From: Alloacidobacterium dinghuense
GTDB lineage: Bacteria > Acidobacteriota > Terriglobia > Terriglobales > Acidobacteriaceae
DNA length: 64,000 bases
Direction: 5' to 3'
NCBI RefSeq assembly: GCF_014274465.1
Contig: NZ_CP060394.1
Location: 3,906,001 to 3,970,000, forward strand
Shown piece by piece: positions 33,593 to 59,924 of the stretch (its first letter is position 1; every line of letters begins with the position of its first letter). The position numbers and the translations under genes are program-made. Under the pieces are notes generated by a model that saw nothing but the letters and a program-made list of their open reading frames with translations, searched no databases and was not told the origin of the DNA.

Positions 33593-33737
33593 GAATTCAG
33601 GTTCCACTCACATTCGGGCAATGTTGAGAAGAAAAATGCAGTATAAGTCTCGCAATGTGAGAGACCAGGATTTGCACAGGGACCACGAAATATTGCGGTT
33701 GACTCGTAGTCTAGCCCTTGATACGGTAGATTTCACT

Positions 33738-33905
33738 TCGCGGTGCCCGGTCCTCAAACCCGGGTGAAAAGGGAAGCCGGTGAAAGACCGGAACTGCCCC
33801 GCAGCGGTAAGCAGGAACAAACGCTCCAACAGCAAGCACTGGTTCAGCCGTGAACTGGGAAGCCGGAGCAAGTAGGCAGCCTGCAAGTCCGAAGACCTGC
33901 CACGA
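33738..33905 (+). promoter_or_regulatory. cobalamin (AdoCbl) riboswitch
   Basis: The core signatures are all present in order: GGTGCCCGG...CCCGGGTGAAAAGGGAA, GCCGGTGAAAGACCGG, the B12-box-like CTGCCCCGCAGCGGTAA, then GGGAAGCCGGAGCAAGTAGGC and AAGTCCGAAGACCTGCC closing the structure. It lies in the leader of nrdAB. By analogy with other B12 riboswitches, cobalamin binding would lower expression of the B12-independent ribonucleotide reductase. This predicts a B12-dependent (class II) enzyme elsewhere in the genome. Confidence 0.95.
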
Positions 33906-33920
33906 AGACATTCGCTACGC

Positions 33921-50787: not shown

Positions 50788-51540
50788 ATGATTTCTTCCC
50801 CGACCCGCCTTCTGACGTTCCTTTGCCTCGTAATCGCTCCCGCGCTATTTGCACAGAAGACGCTGCCACAGCCGCTCTCCTATGACTGCCACCGCACAGC
50901 CACTCCGATCGTGATCGACGGAAAGCTCGACGATCCCGCGTGGAACCAGGCACCGTGGACCTCCGACTTCGTCGACATCGAAGGGTCATCCAAACCAACC
51001 CCGCGCTTCCGCACGCGGGCCAAGATGCTCTACGACGACAAGTACCTCTACATCGCCGCCGAACTCGAAGAGCCCAACGTCACCGCCACGCTCACCCAGC
51101 ACGACTCCGTCATCTTCAAGGACAACGATTTCGAAGTCTTCATCAAGCCGCTTCCCGATACCGCGAGCTACTACGAATTCGAAATCAATGCCCTCAACAC
51201 CGGCTGGGATCTCTTCCTGAGCAAGCCCTACAACCAGGGCGGCAAAGCCGACAACAGCTGGGACATCATCGGACTCAAAACCGCTATCGCCGTTCAGGGA
51301 ACACTCAACCATCCCAGCGACAAAGATCACGGATGGACAGTCGAAATTGCTTATCCGCTCACCGCCTTCAACTCGAGACAGGCCGTGCCGCCACCGCAGC
51401 CCGGAACAACCTGGCGCATCAACTTCAGCCGCGTCGAGTGGAAGCCCGGCAACCCAGTAGAAGACAACTGGGTCTGGTCACCACAGGGCGTCATCAACAT
51501 GCATGTCCCCGAGCGCTGGGGGTACCTGCAATTTCGCTGA
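50788..51540 (+). CDS. secreted CBM9-like carbohydrate-binding protein
   Basis: 250 residues. Signal peptide (LLTFLCLVIAPALFAQ), then one CBM9-type beta-sandwich: IVIDGKLDDPAWNQAPW, RAKMLYDDKYLYIAAELEEP, DNDFEVFIKP, YYEFEINALNTGWDLFL and WTVEIAYPLTAF. These strand motifs match the family seen at the ends of xylanases and in stand-alone acidobacterial proteins. No catalytic domain is present. ATG at 50788 chosen for the signal peptide. Its final codons fall inside direct repeat 1 (51527-51957). Confidence 0.87.
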   Translation: MISSPTRLLTFLCLVIAPALFAQKTLPQPLSYDCHRTATPIVIDGKLDDPAWNQAPWTSDFVDIEGSSKPTPRFRTRAKMLYDDKYLYIAAELEEPNVTATLTQHDSVIFKDNDFEVFIKPLPDTASYYEFEINALNTGWDLFLSKPYNQGGKADNSWDIIGLKTAIAVQGTLNHPSDKDHGWTVEIAYPLTAFNSRQAVPPPQPGTTWRINFSRVEWKPGNPVEDNWVWSPQGVINMHVPERWGYLQFR

Positions 51541-51957
51541 TAAGTTGCCCTGAATAATGTGCAACTGACACAGTTACATATTTTCCACAATAAGTCGCGT
51601 ATTTCCACACCGGAAAATTTGTTTTACCCCCTTGTAATACGCCGCCGCGAGCGTATGCTTCAAATCAACGGAAGAGAGATCTTCCAGCGAAGAGAGCAGA
51701 CAAGGAGACATCAGGAGAACCGGCAACGGATCTCGCGAGGCGGACGGGCAACCGAAAGCCTTGGATGGAACTAAGAAAGCTCTTACAACGACCGGAAGCG
51801 ACGGAAGAGTTCAGGAAGCGCGGGCCGCAAGGTTCGCAGGTCCGGAGCAAAACCGAAGCGACTAGCAGTTGTGATCCGGTTCCGAACCGGATCTTCGAAA
51901 ATCGGAAAAGAAGGGGCGAGATCTCGCAAGGGAAATCGCCCCTTCGCTTTTCTGCCG
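51527..51957 (+). repeat. direct repeat, copy 1 (about 430 bp)
   Basis: Copy 1 of an element whose second copy is at 56376-56807. From 51551 to the end the two align at an exact offset of 4,850 with no gaps and about 95% identity by my count. The left 25 bp differ by one base of spacing. The copy begins within the last codons of the CBM9 gene and ends just after an intrinsic terminator. No transposase, target duplication or terminal inverted repeat is visible. Confidence 0.92.
51632..51953 (+). ncRNA. candidate structured small RNA, copy 1
   Basis: Promoter-like TTGTAA - 16 nt - TATGCT (51632-51659), then a 5' hairpin GGAAGA-gaga-TCTTCC (51670-51685), a stem CGGGCC/GGTCCG (51821-51844), a perfect hairpin GATCCGGTT-ccg-AACCGGATC (51873-51893) and an intrinsic terminator AAGGGGCGA/TCGCCCCTT plus cgctttt (51911-51953). 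All these stems are unchanged in copy 2, while substitutions fall between them or in loops. Predicted length is about 290 nt. I recognise no known RNA family. An open frame from 51765 crosses it but has no ribosome site. Confidence 0.5.
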
Positions 51958-52016
51958 TAAAAAATCCGAACGAAATAAAAGCTGAACTGATCAGCGCTAA
52001 CGATCCGCGAACGATT

Positions 52017-53711
52017 TCAGATCTCGTGCTTCTTGAACCGGTCAATCAAGCGATCGCAGGCGCGCACCGTAATCGCCATCATCGTCAGCGTAGGATTCTG
52101 GCATCCGGACGAGACAAAACACGCACCGTCCATAGCAAAGACATTCTTCACATCGTGCAATTGACAATAAGAATCCGTGACCGAGGTTTTCGGATCGTTC
52201 CCCATCCGCGCCGTTCCCAGTTCGTGAATCGCCATCCCCGGCTCGGCGACCGTTGACCCAATCTTGATGTTCGTGGCTCCTGCAGCGTCAAGCATTTCCG
52301 CAGCAGTCGCGGCCGCATCTTCCATCAGGGCCTGTTCGTTCGCTCCGTGGGTCATCGAGATGTGGAGCGCGGGAATGCCCCACGTATCCTTCAGGTTCGG
52401 GTCGATCGAGACAAAATTGTCATCGCGCGCCAGCGACTCACCAAACCCTCCGACCGAGATCATGTACTTGCCCGCCTTCACCGCCTGCTTGTAACTGGCT
52501 CCGAATCCTTCCGCTTCGAAATGGAAATCGGCTTCTGCCGAACCCTGATATCCATAGCCGCGAATGAAGTTCGGCTGCCGCGTCGCCTTCGATGTATTGC
52601 GATAGCGGATGATGTAAATTCCGTTGGCACGATGCGGCGCACTGTACGCATCGGGAGCATCCTTGAACTGCGGCAGTTCTCCGGAAGCCCCGGCGCCGGT
52701 CGCATGGTCCATCAGCCCACGGCCTAGCAGCCCGCTCGAATTGCCCAAGCCCACCGTGTGACTGCCGCTCGTCGAGTTCAGCAGAATGCGCGTCGATTCC
52801 ATCGCCTGCGCACATAGGATCACCGTCTTCCCCCGGATGGTCTTCGTCTGCCGCGTCGTACCGTCGACAAACGTTACACCATTCGCTAGGTTCGTTGCCG
52901 GATCCATCTCGACACTCGCCGCAATCGCATTCGTCAGCAGGGTGCATTTCCCGGTCTTAAGCGCGTCCTTCACCGTGGTGAAGGGGCTGCTGAAATACGA
53001 AAAAGAGATGCAGCCACGCTCGCAGGTGCCGCAGTAATGGCACGCGGACCGCCCATTGTGCGCCTGCGTAAGAATCGCCGTGCGCCCGATAGTCACCGTC
53101 CTGCCAAAATTCTTGGCAACAGCATCGCGGAAGTGGATTTCTCCGCAGGTCATCTTCATCGGGGGTAGAAAATGCCCATCCGGCAGCGCGTCATTTCCCT
53201 CCGCCGCGCCGCTGATGCCGACATAGTCTTCAACAATGTCGTAAAAGGGAGCCATATCTTTGTATGCGATGGGCCAGTCACTCCCATAGCCGTCGAGGCT
53301 CGCCGCCTTGAAGTCAAGATCGCTCAACCGATAGCTCTGGCGTCCCCAGCTGAGCGTCCTTCCTCCCACAATGCGCATACGCTGCCAGGTAAAAGGCTTG
53401 CCCGCAGGAGTGCTGTAAGGATTCTCGAGGTCGTCGACAAACCAGTCGTAGTTGTATTCCGTGCACGCGTAGCACTGCGTCTGGATAGGGCGCGTCTTGC
53501 GCCATTCCCCCGCTCCGCCCATATCTCTGTATTTCAGCTCGAATACTGGCTTGTGCTCGGTGAACTCCCTCGGCGAGATATTGCGCCCCGCTTCCAGCAA
53601 AGCAACTTCGAGACCGGCTTCGGCCAGTCGCTTCGCCGCCCATCCCCCGGTTGCGCCCGAGCCCACTACGATTGCGTCATACGTGCGAGTCAGCGGATCC
53701 TGAAAAAACAT
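52017..53711 (-). CDS. GMC-family FAD oxidoreductase (gluconate/sorbitol dehydrogenase-type large subunit)
   Basis: 564 residues. FAD-binding Rossmann motif near the N-terminus (AIVVGSGATGGWAAKRL, AGLEVALLEAG), GGRTLSWGRQSYR, and a cysteine-rich CHYCGTCERGC segment, which could hold a metal or disulfides. The C-terminal GMC_oxred_C region contains HELGTARMGNDP and CQNPTLTMMAITVRACDRL, with the active-site His/Asn area. It oxidises a sugar or sugar acid and passes electrons to cytochrome c. ATG at 53711 directly precedes the FAD motif; the open frame to 53948 overlaps the upstream subunit gene. Operon order: cytochrome c, subunit 3, this gene. Confidence 0.9.
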   Translation of the reverse strand: MFFQDPLTRTYDAIVVGSGATGGWAAKRLAEAGLEVALLEAGRNISPREFTEHKPVFELKYRDMGGAGEWRKTRPIQTQCYACTEYNYDWFVDDLENPYSTPAGKPFTWQRMRIVGGRTLSWGRQSYRLSDLDFKAASLDGYGSDWPIAYKDMAPFYDIVEDYVGISGAAEGNDALPDGHFLPPMKMTCGEIHFRDAVAKNFGRTVTIGRTAILTQAHNGRSACHYCGTCERGCISFSYFSSPFTTVKDALKTGKCTLLTNAIAASVEMDPATNLANGVTFVDGTTRQTKTIRGKTVILCAQAMESTRILLNSTSGSHTVGLGNSSGLLGRGLMDHATGAGASGELPQFKDAPDAYSAPHRANGIYIIRYRNTSKATRQPNFIRGYGYQGSAEADFHFEAEGFGASYKQAVKAGKYMISVGGFGESLARDDNFVSIDPNLKDTWGIPALHISMTHGANEQALMEDAAATAAEMLDAAGATNIKIGSTVAEPGMAIHELGTARMGNDPKTSVTDSYCQLHDVKNVFAMDGACFVSSGCQNPTLTMMAITVRACDRLIDRFKKHEI

Positions 53712-53746
53712 CTCTCTGCACAATCTCCCGATTAACTGGCTCCCGA

Positions 53747-54340
53747 TTAACTGGCCTTGTGTTCGCCCGGCTGATGCTCGCAACCGGAAAATGTGCCCCG
53801 TGCCGCCCAGCCGTCCCAGCCCTGTTCCTTCAGGCCGATCGGAGAGCTGTAGTACGCGCTGGCAATCCAACCCTTGAGCCGGGTGAAATGCAGATAGCCG
53901 GGGAACACAACCCCCGCCTGTCCCCAGGCTGACTGTGTATGAGGCCACGCAACCAGGTTCAGAAAATCTGTCCTCTCACCATCCGTCAGCTTTGCGAAAG
54001 TCGTCTTATAGCGCTCCTGCGCACCCGTATCGAACCACTCCAGCGACTCGACAAACTCGCGCTGATTTTTTTCGATCTCGACCGACAGCACCAGATCGAG
54101 AAACCGGTTCACCAGCGCCGCCTTCGCTCCCGGAGTGTCGGTCGCTGGGATAATCGCCTCGCTCAGCACAATCAAGGTTTCGTTCTGCTGCTGGTTCAGA
54201 AAGACAGGCGTCCAGTCAGCGCGCTGGAGTTCGAGAAAAGCATCCTCTCCCGCAGGAAAAATCCGCGCTCCGGCTGGTCGCGTCACCGCCGCCGCGCCCA
54301 TGGTCAACAACGAATTACGAAGCAGTTCGCGACGATTCAT
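53747..54340 (-). CDS. gluconate 2-dehydrogenase subunit 3-like protein
   Basis: 197 residues. Twin-arginine signal (MNRRELLRNSLLTMGAAAVT), then the helical subunit-3 domain with LSEAIIPATDTPGAKAA, FVESLEWFD and a tail TRLKGWIASAYYSSPIGLKE. Subunit 3 carries the Tat signal that exports the FAD-loaded large subunit as a complex, which fits the large subunit at 52017-53711 having none. ATG at 54340 lies 43 bp after the cytochrome c gene; 35 bp separate it from the GMC gene. Confidence 0.9.
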   Translation of the reverse strand: MNRRELLRNSLLTMGAAAVTRPAGARIFPAGEDAFLELQRADWTPVFLNQQQNETLIVLSEAIIPATDTPGAKAALVNRFLDLVLSVEIEKNQREFVESLEWFDTGAQERYKTTFAKLTDGERTDFLNLVAWPHTQSAWGQAGVVFPGYLHFTRLKGWIASAYYSSPIGLKEQGWDGWAARGTFSGCEHQPGEHKAS

Positions 54341-54382
54341 GGCTTGGCAGATATAGTACGCGCCCCATTGGAAGCCTGCACG

Positions 54383-54814
54383 CTACGGCTTAACGATGTG
54401 AATTGCTTCCAGCGATTGCGGATCGCTCGGCAGTTCCTTGCTGCCCGTTGGAAATTTACTCGCGCTCAGAATGTAAGCGAGCACCTGCGCCACCTCTTTC
54501 GGCGGCACTGTCCCCGGATCCATCGCCGGCATCATGACAATGGTCTTCATAAACAAATCGGCCACCGTCTGGTCGGTCCACCTGTTCAAAAACTCGCTCC
54601 CGGCCAGCGGAGAATTCTCCCCCTGGCCCTCAAGCGCGTCCCCGTGGCACATACCGCACTGGCTCTGGTAGATCGCCTTTCCCTGCTGCGCCTGTTCCGC
54701 TGTATACACGCCATCGCGCGTCGTCAGAACAGAGTGCGGAGCCGTCTGCGCAGAAAGCACCGGCAGAAAAACCCCCATCACCAGCACGCTCACCCACACA
54801 GCATCAAATCGCAT
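54383..54814 (-). CDS. c-type cytochrome, electron acceptor of the GMC dehydrogenase
   Basis: 143 residues. Signal peptide (VWVSVLVMGVFLPVLSAQ), a single heme site CGMCH (Cys53, Cys56, His57), and a methionine-rich stretch TIVMMPAMDPGTVP supplying the sixth ligand, then VAQVLAYILSASKFP, as in class I cytochromes. First gene of the operon; it would take electrons from the GMC/subunit-3 complex in the periplasm. ATG at 54814 chosen for the signal peptide over an open frame to 54880. Confidence 0.9.
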   Translation of the reverse strand: MRFDAVWVSVLVMGVFLPVLSAQTAPHSVLTTRDGVYTAEQAQQGKAIYQSQCGMCHGDALEGQGENSPLAGSEFLNRWTDQTVADLFMKTIVMMPAMDPGTVPPKEVAQVLAYILSASKFPTGSKELPSDPQSLEAIHIVKP

Positions 54815-55082
54815 TTGCCGCACCGCAGACTCCTCCGATGAAGCCAAGACGCGATTATACCCGCCCCGTACAAAAGACACCCGACCCGGCGACCATCGCT
54901 AGTGGGTCAGTTTAAGTCTCTGACAGATTGTAGTTACCGATAATGCCGTTTTTCAGGCACTTCGTTCTGCATGCTGGCTGCCCCAGCGATGGGTTACTTC
55001 CGTATAGCCGACAAACCGGGAATAAACTCGTAATCATGCGACCACGGCCTTGGATGTGGAGCCTCATACTATCCTTGAGGTT

Positions 55083-56240
55083 GTGAAATCCTTCGGCTCA
55101 GTTCTCGTTGTTGTCCTTACCTGTTTTCTTGCACACGCCATCGCCAACGGTCAAACCCCCTCTGTTAGAACCTGCTCGGCTTTCGCAGCGGATGGAACGT
55201 TAGCCACCGGAACCATCGAGAAGGGTTTATTGGAGACGCGCCTCGCAGCACGCGGCGCCCCGGCAAAGGTAATCCGCACGACGATCGCGAATCCGTGGAG
55301 ATGCGAACAAGGCTTCAGCGGTAACGGGGAGTGGCTGATCACTCTCTTGCCAGCCGAGAAGCTCACAATTCAGATTCTCAACGTGAAGAAGCAGGAGCTT
55401 CATGGGCAGTTTTCGTCAGAGTGGCACACTTTTCACAACATCGCGTTGGAGGCTGGATACCAGTCTAGGTTTCTAGGAGGATTTGCCCCTGATGATTCGA
55501 TCATACTTTGGCGATATGTACCGCAGGAGGGTCGCAGTCCAAACGACGCTTCCATCGTTCACTTGCACTGTCAGCGATGGAGCATAGAAGGAGAATTGAT
55601 CTCAGATCAGGACCTGGGCGTGTTGGGAGTTGCTGTGGGTGGCCGCGAACCGATATTCGGGGCAGGATTTAAACAGTTTTGGGTACCCGATGATTGCGGA
55701 TACGAGTGCTACCGGCGCTATCGCCTCGATGGAGACCATGCTGTGACCGACGGCACATTGACATTCCCGAAGAACGACGCCGCCGTACCGACCTACCTTG
55801 TAGCGTCGAATCGGTTTTTTACGGTGTCGGGCGAAGGAACGAAGCAGAAAGCCGTCCTGTTGGACGACTCTGGAAAGAGCGATTCAGAGGCCGATTTGCC
55901 ATTCTTCCCGAACCTTCTCAAGCCAGTAGTCCCTGATTGGTTTTACGTTCACCAGATCGTCCACTCTGCTGATGATCGATTCATCGCAATTGGACGATCA
56001 CGGGTAGCTTGGGTTCTGGTCGATACGGACCGTGATTGGGGGAGTGAAGTTTTGGTACTCGATGCTCACTCATTGACGGTGGTATCGGCGCTGAAGGTTG
56101 GTCGAGGTGGCATCCACTCTCTCGCCATCGACCACCGGGAACGCTCAATTCGTTTGGCCGGTTACTGGGGAGGTCGCTGGCACGACTTAACAAGGGATGA
56201 GCAGGAGCGTTCCGATTGGCGAGAATCGCACGGATCATAG
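55083..56240 (+). CDS. unrecognised exported protein, propeller-like
   Basis: About 385 residues; I do not recognise the family. The N-terminus (SVLVVVLTCFLAHAIANG) looks like a signal peptide. The rest is rich in short beta-strands with WxV/LxD patterns (ILNVKKQELHGQF, SEVLVLDAHSLTVV, IHSLAIDHRERSIRLAGYWGG), which suggests a beta-propeller, as in WD40-like proteins. CGYECYRRYRLDG holds a Cys pair. Start is uncertain: GTG at 55083 with GAGG close upstream gives the cleanest signal peptide; a TTG at 55050 is also in frame. It lies between the two direct repeats and its 3' end is 135 bp before copy 2. Confidence 0.6.
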   Translation: MKSFGSVLVVVLTCFLAHAIANGQTPSVRTCSAFAADGTLATGTIEKGLLETRLAARGAPAKVIRTTIANPWRCEQGFSGNGEWLITLLPAEKLTIQILNVKKQELHGQFSSEWHTFHNIALEAGYQSRFLGGFAPDDSIILWRYVPQEGRSPNDASIVHLHCQRWSIEGELISDQDLGVLGVAVGGREPIFGAGFKQFWVPDDCGYECYRRYRLDGDHAVTDGTLTFPKNDAAVPTYLVASNRFFTVSGEGTKQKAVLLDDSGKSDSEADLPFFPNLLKPVVPDWFYVHQIVHSADDRFIAIGRSRVAWVLVDTDRDWGSEVLVLDAHSLTVVSALKVGRGGIHSLAIDHRERSIRLAGYWGGRWHDLTRDEQERSDWRESHGS

Positions 56241-56375
56241 CTGATTACGGCCAACGATTCGTCAAGCTGCCGTGTGACCGGCAATACGGAAGTGATCCTG
56301 TGTAGTGCCCGCAAAGTCCGCATTTCGGTAACTCGGCCAAATCAAATTGACCCACCACCCAACTCTCCAACAACT

Positions 56376-56807
56376 TGCAATTTCGCTAGCAGAAATGCCC
56401 TGAATAATGTGCAACTGACACAGTTACATATTTTCCACAAATTGTCCTGCATTTCCACACCGGAAAATTTGTTTTACCCCCTTGTAATACGCCGGCGCGG
56501 GAGTATGCTTCAAATCAACGGAAGAGAGATCTTCCAGCGAAGAGAGCAGACAAGGAACCATCAGGAGAACCGGTAACGGATCTCGCGAGGCGTACGGGCA
56601 ACCGAAAGCCTTGGATGGAACCGAGAAAGCTCTTACAACGACCGGAAGCGACGGAAGAGTTCAGGAAGCGCGGGCCGCAAGGTTCGCAGGTCCGGAGCAA
56701 AGCCGAAGCGACAAACAGTTGTGATCCGGTTCCGAACCGGATCTTCGAAAATCGGAAAAGAAGGGGCGAGATCCCGCAAGGGAAATCGCCCCTTCGCTTT
56801 TCTGCCG
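56376..56807 (+). repeat. direct repeat, copy 2 (about 430 bp)
   Basis: Second copy of the element at 51527-51957. It starts with 'tgcaatttcgct', which in copy 1 is the last coding part of the CBM9 gene, although no such gene is here. This suggests copy 2 derives from the CBM9-linked copy. It ends at gccg after the terminator, just before the leader of the 56891 gene. Confidence 0.92.
56482..56803 (+). ncRNA. candidate structured small RNA, copy 2
   Basis: Same layout as copy 1: TTGTAA - 16 nt - TATGCT, GGAAGA/TCTTCC hairpin, CGGGCC/GGTCCG stem, GATCCGGTT/AACCGGATC hairpin at 56723-56743 and the AAGGGGCGA/TCGCCCCTT terminator with T-run. The spacer between promoter boxes differs in sequence but keeps its length. 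It ends about 90 nt before the start of the next gene. Confidence 0.5.
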
Positions 56808-59162: not shown

Positions 59163-59924
59163 ATGGATCTAGCGAAGCATTGCCGCCCTGCACTCATCTT
59201 TTGCGCCCTGGTTTTAGCGGCAGCCACAGCGCAGCAGCAGCATCCGGAGCATACATGGGACTACAGCAACTTGCATGGACCAAGTCATTGGGCTGAGCTT
59301 GGACCCGAGTTTGCGCCGTGCGCGAATGGCCATCACCAATCTCCCATCGACATCCGCAACCCGCAAAGTGCCGACCTCCCGCCCATCCAGTTCAACTACA
59401 ATCCTTCGCCGCTCGACATCATCGACAACGGCCATACCGTCATGATCATCTACGCCCCCGGCAGCTTCATCACCGTAGGCGGCAAGAGGTACGAACTCAG
59501 ACAATTTCACTTCCACCGCCCCAGTGAAGAAAGGATCAACGGGGTCGACTATGAAATCGGTGCGCATCTCGTCCACGCCGACCAGCAGGGCCACCTGGCC
59601 GTCGTCGCAGTTCTCCTGCAGAAGGGAGAGGACAACCCTCTCGTCCACGAACTGTGGGAGGACATCCCCAAAGAAAAGGACAAAGAAGAACATCTCAACA
59701 ACATCCAGATCGATCTGGCCAAACTGCTGCCCGCCGATCGCGGTTACTACACCTTCGATGGATCTCTCACGACGCCGCCTTGCAGTGAAGGCGTCACCTG
59801 GTACGTCCTGAAGCATCCGGTGACCGTTACAACCGCGGAGATCGAGCAATTCTCAAAACTGTACCGGGCCAACGCACGCCCGACGCAGCCGCTGTACGGC
59901 CGGGTTGTTTTGGAAAGCAAGTAG
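59163..59924 (+). CDS. periplasmic alpha-type carbonic anhydrase
   Basis: 253 residues. Signal peptide (PALIFCALVLAAATAQ), then the alpha-carbonic-anhydrase fold. Zinc ligands are His116 and His118 (RQFHFHRPSEE) and His135 (GAHLVHAD). GHHQSPIDIRNPQ and SLTTPPCSEGVTWYVL are further signatures; Cys53 and the Cys in TPPCSEG form the usual disulfide. It interconverts CO2 and bicarbonate in the periplasm. All catalytic residues seem intact. ATG at 59163. Confidence 0.95.
   Translation: MDLAKHCRPALIFCALVLAAATAQQQHPEHTWDYSNLHGPSHWAELGPEFAPCANGHHQSPIDIRNPQSADLPPIQFNYNPSPLDIIDNGHTVMIIYAPGSFITVGGKRYELRQFHFHRPSEERINGVDYEIGAHLVHADQQGHLAVVAVLLQKGEDNPLVHELWEDIPKEKDKEEHLNNIQIDLAKLLPADRGYYTFDGSLTTPPCSEGVTWYVLKHPVTVTTAEIEQFSKLYRANARPTQPLYGRVVLESK

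Follow-up and report, generated by a model that had tools for sequence, protein, structure and literature searches.

Among described bacterial RNAs, the closest counterparts of the genes treated here include the Csr/Rsm sponge RNAs, which passages of two papers (PMC2375449, PMC13287468) portray as intergenic RNAs that act in trans, carry repeated hairpins, possess their own upstream activating site and are encoded by several genes per genome. We examined a window of 64,000 nucleotides (nt) from Alloacidobacterium dinghuense (contig NZ_CP060394.1, positions 3,906,001 to 3,970,000, forward strand; "the window" means this whole stretch), which holds two copies of a unit that a preliminary description had proposed to encode a structured RNA outside any known family. 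That proposal has gained support: the element has no match in Rfam, its homologues show covarying base pairs, and its open reading frames (ORFs) are no longer than chance. Judged by comparative analysis, the element is almost certainly an RNA gene, and these genes very probably form a family not described before. The family shares with CsrB and with RsmX, RsmY and RsmZ the intergenic position, the hairpin repeats, a candidate activating site of its own upstream, multiple genes per genome and, presumably, action in trans. It differs in its loops, which are mostly GNRA tetraloops where those of CsrB/Rsm are GGA, in its upstream box, and in a core that is branched and covarying.

Other structured RNAs offer partial parallels. 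Acidobacteria are widespread and abundant in soil, and an excerpt of a 2022 survey counts only four distinct annotated small RNAs (sRNAs) for the whole phylum (PMC9029176). Acido-1 and Acido-Lenti-1 (RF01686, RF01687), reported in 2010, are likewise candidate non-coding RNAs of Acidobacteria (PMC2864571). GOLLD, ROOL and OLE are intricately folded stand-alone bacterial RNAs, built by A-minor contacts and kissing loops as far as an extract of PMC12286853 describes them, and the raiA-motif RNA (ModT) is another structured bacterial non-coding RNA of complex fold, reported from Bacillota and other phyla (PMC11706538). None of these was recovered by our Rfam scans of the element and of 20 homologue loci. 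We take the RF01686 and RF01687 models to be still present in Rfam release 15, and presumably the GOLLD, ROOL and OLE models are included in the database too. The family also differs from these last three in being shorter, in having a variable number of hairpins and in having no phage or plasmid match. We found no description of such an RNA in these bacteria among the matches listed from the open-licence literature.

The element has no match in Rfam 15 at the gathering score, and when it was searched alone with E values up to 5, only three matches appeared, all sub-threshold. The 20 homologue loci gave one adjoining transfer RNA and nothing more, and six of them gave no match up to E 0.5; these scans support the preliminary description, whose author knew of no RNA family with such a layout. 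A divergent housekeeping RNA, 6S for example, would have about the right size and its own promoter-like and terminator-like signals, but this explanation is scarcely tenable and already contradicted: the 6S model (RF00013) does not match the element, the genome has a single canonical 6S elsewhere (57.4 bits, above the cut-off), no other Rfam family matches, and the distribution is patchy and multi-copy. The sole match in the window at the gathering score is a Cobalamin riboswitch at 33724-33918 (107.4 bits).

The duplicated unit is 412 bp long, and its two copies, both on the plus strand, differ by 19 substitutions (95.4% identity) and no indels. They lie exactly 4,850 bp apart, start to start, which bears out what the preliminary description had said of their spacing and freedom from indels. 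Its left edge, set at 51527, has to be moved: the stretch 51527-51545 is unlike its counterpart (14 of the 19 bases differ), and the repeat begins at 51546. The RNA part carries 10 substitutions in 286 positions, of which 7 are unpaired and 3 paired in the comparative structure. The earlier statement that every stem is identical in the two copies therefore fits the seven but fails for the three; two of these are G-C/G-U swaps, and one disrupts a pair in copy 1. The promoter-like pair TTGTAA-N16-TATGCT does occur, though it is weak (51632-51637 and 51654-51659), and so does the intrinsic terminator (51910-51945 plus CGCTTTT). Three stem-loops proved too few, however: the comparative structure has 11 helices, including one branched domain, plus a candidate pseudoknot. 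The genome (6.27 Mb) also contains a third copy of the RNA, 77% identical, at a distance of 1.36 Mb.

Folding and coding tests are consistent with an RNA product. The strand 51660-51960 folds at -124.5 kcal/mol (z = -6.04), and 0 of 100 shuffles were equally stable. We defined homologues by matches with E<=1e-22 in 90 selected sources and excluded weaker, truncated and antisense ones, which gave 96 sequences. The median length of the longest closed ORF in them is 90 nt, whereas shuffled sequences give 111 nt, so that by ORF length versus shuffles the homologues show no coding signal. They keep base pairs rather than a reading frame, as the preliminary description would have it, according to these ORF lengths and to a phylogeny-aware analysis of covariation.

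For that analysis, 10 full-length sequences were aligned and used to build a covariance model, R1, with 70 base pairs. In these first 10 sequences 92.7% of cells are paired. Double changes occur at 19 of the 74 pairs counted together with the pseudoknot candidate, a number that 0 of 500 shuffles reached. Removal of near-identical sequences from the 96 left 93 in an alignment fitted to the model and 91 in a structure-blind one. In the tree-based test the null places the same number of changes per column randomly on the branches, in 200 simulations. The fitted alignment has 222 double canonical changes, against a null mean of 16.0 and a maximum of 28; the structure-blind alignment has 137 over the 70 pairs, against a mean of 17.0 and a maximum of 32. 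When pairing partners were slid by 1-3 columns, the events fell to 12-19 (fitted) and 5-17 (blind), with null means of 7-9. A G-test below 0.01 was obtained for 23 of the 70 pairs and for 0-1 pairs per slid set. We conclude that the predicted fold covaries beyond what phylogeny accounts for.

These compensatory changes also bear on the possibility that the unit is mobile or repetitive DNA, with inverted repeats that only resemble RNA stems. Duplication within 5 kb, tandem pairs in several genomes and a patchy presence would all suit such an element. The idea is nevertheless very improbable and already contradicted, given compensatory changes far above the null and fixed upstream boxes and terminator; in addition there are few copies per genome, the third copy here is only 77% identical to the others, no phage or plasmid record matches, and no inverted repeat flanking the unit was seen among the matches listed. 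An origin from a phage or plasmid was rejected on the same lack of matches in phage and plasmid records. Two pattern matches in viral contigs, identical to each other over 335 bases, score 24.4 bits across 125 nt and lie over reading frames; we take them as chance.

The candidate pseudoknot would pair the H4 loop CCGA (51882-51885) with UCGG at 51902-51905. In the fitted alignment its four core pairs are 84-100% canonical, with just two double changes among them, and six pairs together have 4 events, equalled in 1 of 200 simulations. On the structure-blind alignment, where that part is misaligned, it has no support, and we regard it as suggestive only.

The family appears confined to one bacterial family. 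A plain DNA search matched 9 of 100 relatives. R1 matches 84 of 398 same-family genomes at E<=0.01 (61 of the 256 of good quality), spread over 16 of 79 genera; 77 of the 84 reach at least 40 bits, and 7 have only matches below 30 bits. A class-wide sample yielded 26 matching genomes out of 299, with 25 in the same family and the remaining one at 21.7 bits, and a phylum-wide sample 17 out of 386, with 14 in the same family and the other three short and at about 26 bits; we thus saw no convincing match outside the family in either sample, in scans that, being large, used stricter filters and lose weak matches. Among the carriers, as named in the record titles, are Edaphobacter lichenicola, E. 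aggregans and E. modestus, Granulicella, Silvibacterium bohemicum, Paracidobacterium acidisoli and Terracidiphilus gabretensis; of these genera, Edaphobacter, Paracidobacterium and Silvibacterium belong to the Acidobacteriaceae. To control for chance, we searched with a 21-base pattern taken from H1, which occurs in 69 stretches of named genomes. The 45 with acidobacterial titles were all R1 matches at E<=4.1e-13 (two incomplete at the end of the stretch), while the 24 others scored at most 18.7 bits, over the very hairpin used to select them. A covariance model and a search of acidobacterial genomes, which the preliminary description had named as a check on its claim, have thus found a family, and one whose pairs covary. 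Genomes carry up to 3 copies, and in four of them (G208, G222, G349, G379) tandem pairs lie 0.44-0.73 kb apart, start to start. One 113-nt match (L113, 3995-4107, genome G171) keeps mainly the 3' part and is apparently a truncated copy.

Within the fold, GNRA loops cap four of the six consensus hairpins in 78-97% of homologues: H1 in 92 of 95, the terminator in 85 of 96, and the two hairpins of domain A in 75 of 96 and 71 of 91. The H4 loop is GNRA in 0 of 96. The apical loop of domain B is GNRA in both window copies and in 12 of 86 homologues as aligned, only part of that loop falling between the pairs of the model. When 97 RNAs were folded by minimum energy, GNRA loops made up 411 of 698 hairpin loops, compared with 11 of 577 in shuffles.

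These hairpins come in variable number. RNA length ranges from 247 to 507 nt and the GNRA count in minimum-energy folds from 1 to 11 per RNA, and the two correlate (r=0.81). The long members that we inspected keep H1, and nearly all of them the terminator hairpin, with the extra hairpins inside domain A; short members have fewer hairpins. Six enlarged RNAs (L041, L182, L186, L187, L191 and L246) measure 402-507 nt with 8-11 predicted GNRA hairpins, and some enlarged RNAs are scored by the model as two split matches. By position, 202 GNRA hairpins were placed in domain A; the apical helix measures 3 bp in 92 of them and 4 bp in 43. Beneath 89 of the 92 lies an internal loop, and these small loops are A- and G-rich. 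A count of module-like hairpins in the window gave 12 on the plus strand (5 in the RNAs) and 1 on the minus strand, with 1, 4 and 0 in shuffles. The seven on the plus strand outside the RNAs are possibly messenger RNA (mRNA) sites for a shared binding protein, or chance.

Upstream of most copies lies a direct repeat, ATTTSCACA-N11-ATTTSCACA (ATTTCCACA or ATTTGCACA), whose two boxes are 20 bp apart. In the window's genome, at up to 2 mismatches, this twin-box pattern has 3 matches, all at the three RNA genes, and the reversed pattern has 0. Flanks were surveyed for a subset of 57 copies in 51 loci; at up to 3 mismatches the twin boxes precede 46 of the 57 and the reversed pattern none. Across 396 family genomes, at up to one mismatch, there are 58 sites, of which all 28 exact ones and 17 of the 30 with one mismatch stand directly upstream of the RNA. 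The other 13 (L138-L150) have no RNA nearby (best 4.3 bits); the reversed control matches 3 times in the same genomes, which explains these sites only in part, and they may be further targets of the proposed activator or genes that have decayed. From box to RNA start the distance is 45-46 (11 sites), 55-57 (32) or 60 (2), from positions transferred manually from the search tables, so that the clusters are one helical turn apart. A shift by one turn is what we would expect of an activator bound on one face of the DNA. We take the boxes to resemble cyanobacterial DnaA boxes, but control by DnaA was unsupported: the 6 kb around dnaA have no box cluster (one TTTTCCACA, no ATTTSCACA).

The neighbourhood of the RNA genes is variable. 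With neighbours taken as mechanically called ORFs, of at least 150 aa for the strand count, the next downstream gene is on the opposite strand for 38 of the 57 copies and on the same strand for 19, and the 51 loci yield 357 neighbour clusters; the two most widespread occur in 6 and 5 loci, six more in 3, and all the rest in 1-2. These variable neighbours and the mostly opposite next gene suggest that the RNA is not a leader and acts in trans. A cis-acting leader or attenuator of the next gene would explain why the RNA ends in a terminator and why copy 2 is followed by a same-strand gene; it is nonetheless most improbable, already contradicted by the orientation of the next gene and by neighbour families that recur in at most 6 loci. 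Cis-regulation of the riboswitch-attenuator kind was rejected on the same counts, there being no recurring same-strand downstream gene.

One trans-acting possibility is a regulatory sRNA whose unpaired stretches pair with mRNAs, the hairpins serving only as stabilizers. It would fit the intergenic position with its own promoter-like and terminator-like signals, and the purine-rich single strands that contain Shine-Dalgarno-like pieces. The conserved unpaired stretches are short, however (the longest runs between H4 and the terminator), and pairing alone should have no need for the gain of whole GNRA hairpins, so we consider this distinctly unlikely.

The comparisons point firmly to a predicted stand-alone structured RNA gene whose fold covaries and which has a terminator hairpin, a weak core promoter and, in most copies, twin boxes. 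How the RNA works is a more tentative matter. From the gain and loss of hairpins and the private control site, we propose that the GNRA hairpins dock a protein and that a dedicated activator induces the RNA, a reading that falls a little short of probable. The activator would contact both boxes from the same side of the DNA helix and turn the RNA gene on. The RNA itself would then bind a protein, working in trans, and the docking sites would be its GNRA-capped hairpins, which often sit on helices of 3 or 4 bp above small internal loops rich in purines. Evolution could have tuned capacity in two ways, through gain or loss of hairpins (1-11 predicted in each RNA) and through gene duplication (up to 3 copies per genome). 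The principle would be that of a decoy, as in CsrB/RsmZ, with another motif and another protein, and CsrB/Rsm RNAs also vary in hairpin number. The candidate upstream activating element likewise resembles that of CsrB/RsmZ by analogy only. The more specific version, in which a conserved core with bead-like GNRA hairpins and purine mismatches, under its private activator, titrates an RNA-binding protein that recognizes GNRA, is possible but doubtful. A Csr RNA or CsrA sponge in the strict sense was rejected for this genome, as the loops are mostly GNRA and this genome has no CsrA that we could find. GGA is mildly enriched in the RNAs overall (11.6 per RNA versus 8.2 shuffled), the commonest loops still being GNRA.

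The main rival is that the RNA docks with itself: GNRA loops would enter receptors within or between molecules to give a compact monomer or homo-oligomer, the variable domain being a decorated surface. GNRA loops suit A-minor docking, most of the predicted hairpins are GNRA-capped, the internal loops are purine-rich, and a pseudoknot may lie near the 3' end. The contacts in GOLLD, ROOL and OLE, in the extract of PMC12286853 cited above, provide a precedent. The RNAs here have about 250-500 nt and are shorter than GOLLD, ROOL and OLE. A fixed cage, moreover, should hardly tolerate a varying number of modules, and on this evidence we hold self-docking to be rather unlikely.

Several observations weigh against an activator-controlled, protein-docking RNA gene. 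First, eleven of the 57 copies lack recognizable twin boxes, although some of these are truncated or internal matches, and the core promoter is too weak for copy 1 to yield a promoter in a strict sigma-70 scan; a weak -35/-10 pair would also fit dependence on an activator. Second, two of the six slid controls in the fitted alignment, with 19 and 18 events, rise above the maximum of 17 in their own simulations; the null is therefore somewhat lenient, though not nearly enough to affect the totals of 222 and 137. In a strict test of all pairs with a pooled null, significance was reached by 2 column pairs only, both of which belong to the structure; we think that its tail is dominated by slow columns with common deep branches. 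Third, the hairpin counts and the length correlation depend on minimum-energy predictions, and beyond the loop and a few shared apical pairs the hairpins have no common strict sequence. Fourth, GNRA loops are a standard RNA-RNA docking device as well, and the hairpins may serve tertiary or quaternary structure. Fifth, CsrA was not found in the window's genome, in a search that detects it in 3 of 14 control genomes. Finally, the transcript is a predicted one, and its protein partner and target are putative.

The two window genes thus appear to make a strongly folded RNA whose look-alike hairpins are gained and lost across the family. The family has about 100 members, several of them in cultured genera, and its structure is well supported; as it also has a covariance model and a single defined control site, the protein partner and the activator could be sought directly. 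The natural series of 1-11 predicted GNRA hairpins amounts to a built-in titration that could separate a protein sponge from a self-docking RNA. If GNRA titration were true, a global switch of the Csr type would have arisen independently in a dominant group of soil bacteria.

Table 1. Coordinates in the window of the duplicated unit and of the features predicted within it
Feature	Position	Strand	Basis or remark
Duplicated unit, copy 1 (upstream element, promoter, RNA, terminator)	51546-51957	+	sequence comparison
Duplicated unit, copy 2	56396-56807	+	sequence comparison
Twin boxes, copy 1 (51581-51589, 51601-51609)	51581-51609	+	centres near -81 and -61 from inferred start
Twin boxes, copy 2	56431-56459	+	upstream comparison, genome pattern search
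Promoter-like pair TTGTAA-N16-TATGCT, copy 1	51632-51659	+	weak sigma-70 consensus match; relatives
Promoter-like pair, copy 2	56482-56509	+	sequence; relatives
Predicted RNA gene, copy 1	51665-51950	+	covariance-model match, 299.1 bits
Predicted RNA gene, copy 2	56515-56800	+	covariance-model match, 306.9 bits
5' hairpin H1, GNRA loop, copy 1	51670-51685	+	comparative structure
Branched domain A (modular), copy 1: closing stem and two GNRA hairpins (51715-51734, 51736-51763)	51692-51784	+	comparative structure
Domain B, copy 1: long irregular stem, apical hairpin 51820-51837	51786-51871	+	comparative structure
Hairpin H4, copy 1	51873-51893	+	comparative structure
Terminator hairpin, GNRA loop, T-rich tail, copy 1	51910-51952	+	comparative structure

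The two RNA copies flank genes for a GMC oxidoreductase, a gluconate 2-dehydrogenase subunit 3-like protein and a small cytochrome c, apparently one operon (52017-54880, minus strand), together with a 396-aa reading frame that has no Pfam match (55050-56240). An alpha (eukaryotic-type) carbonic anhydrase gene lies further along the window at 59163-59924.

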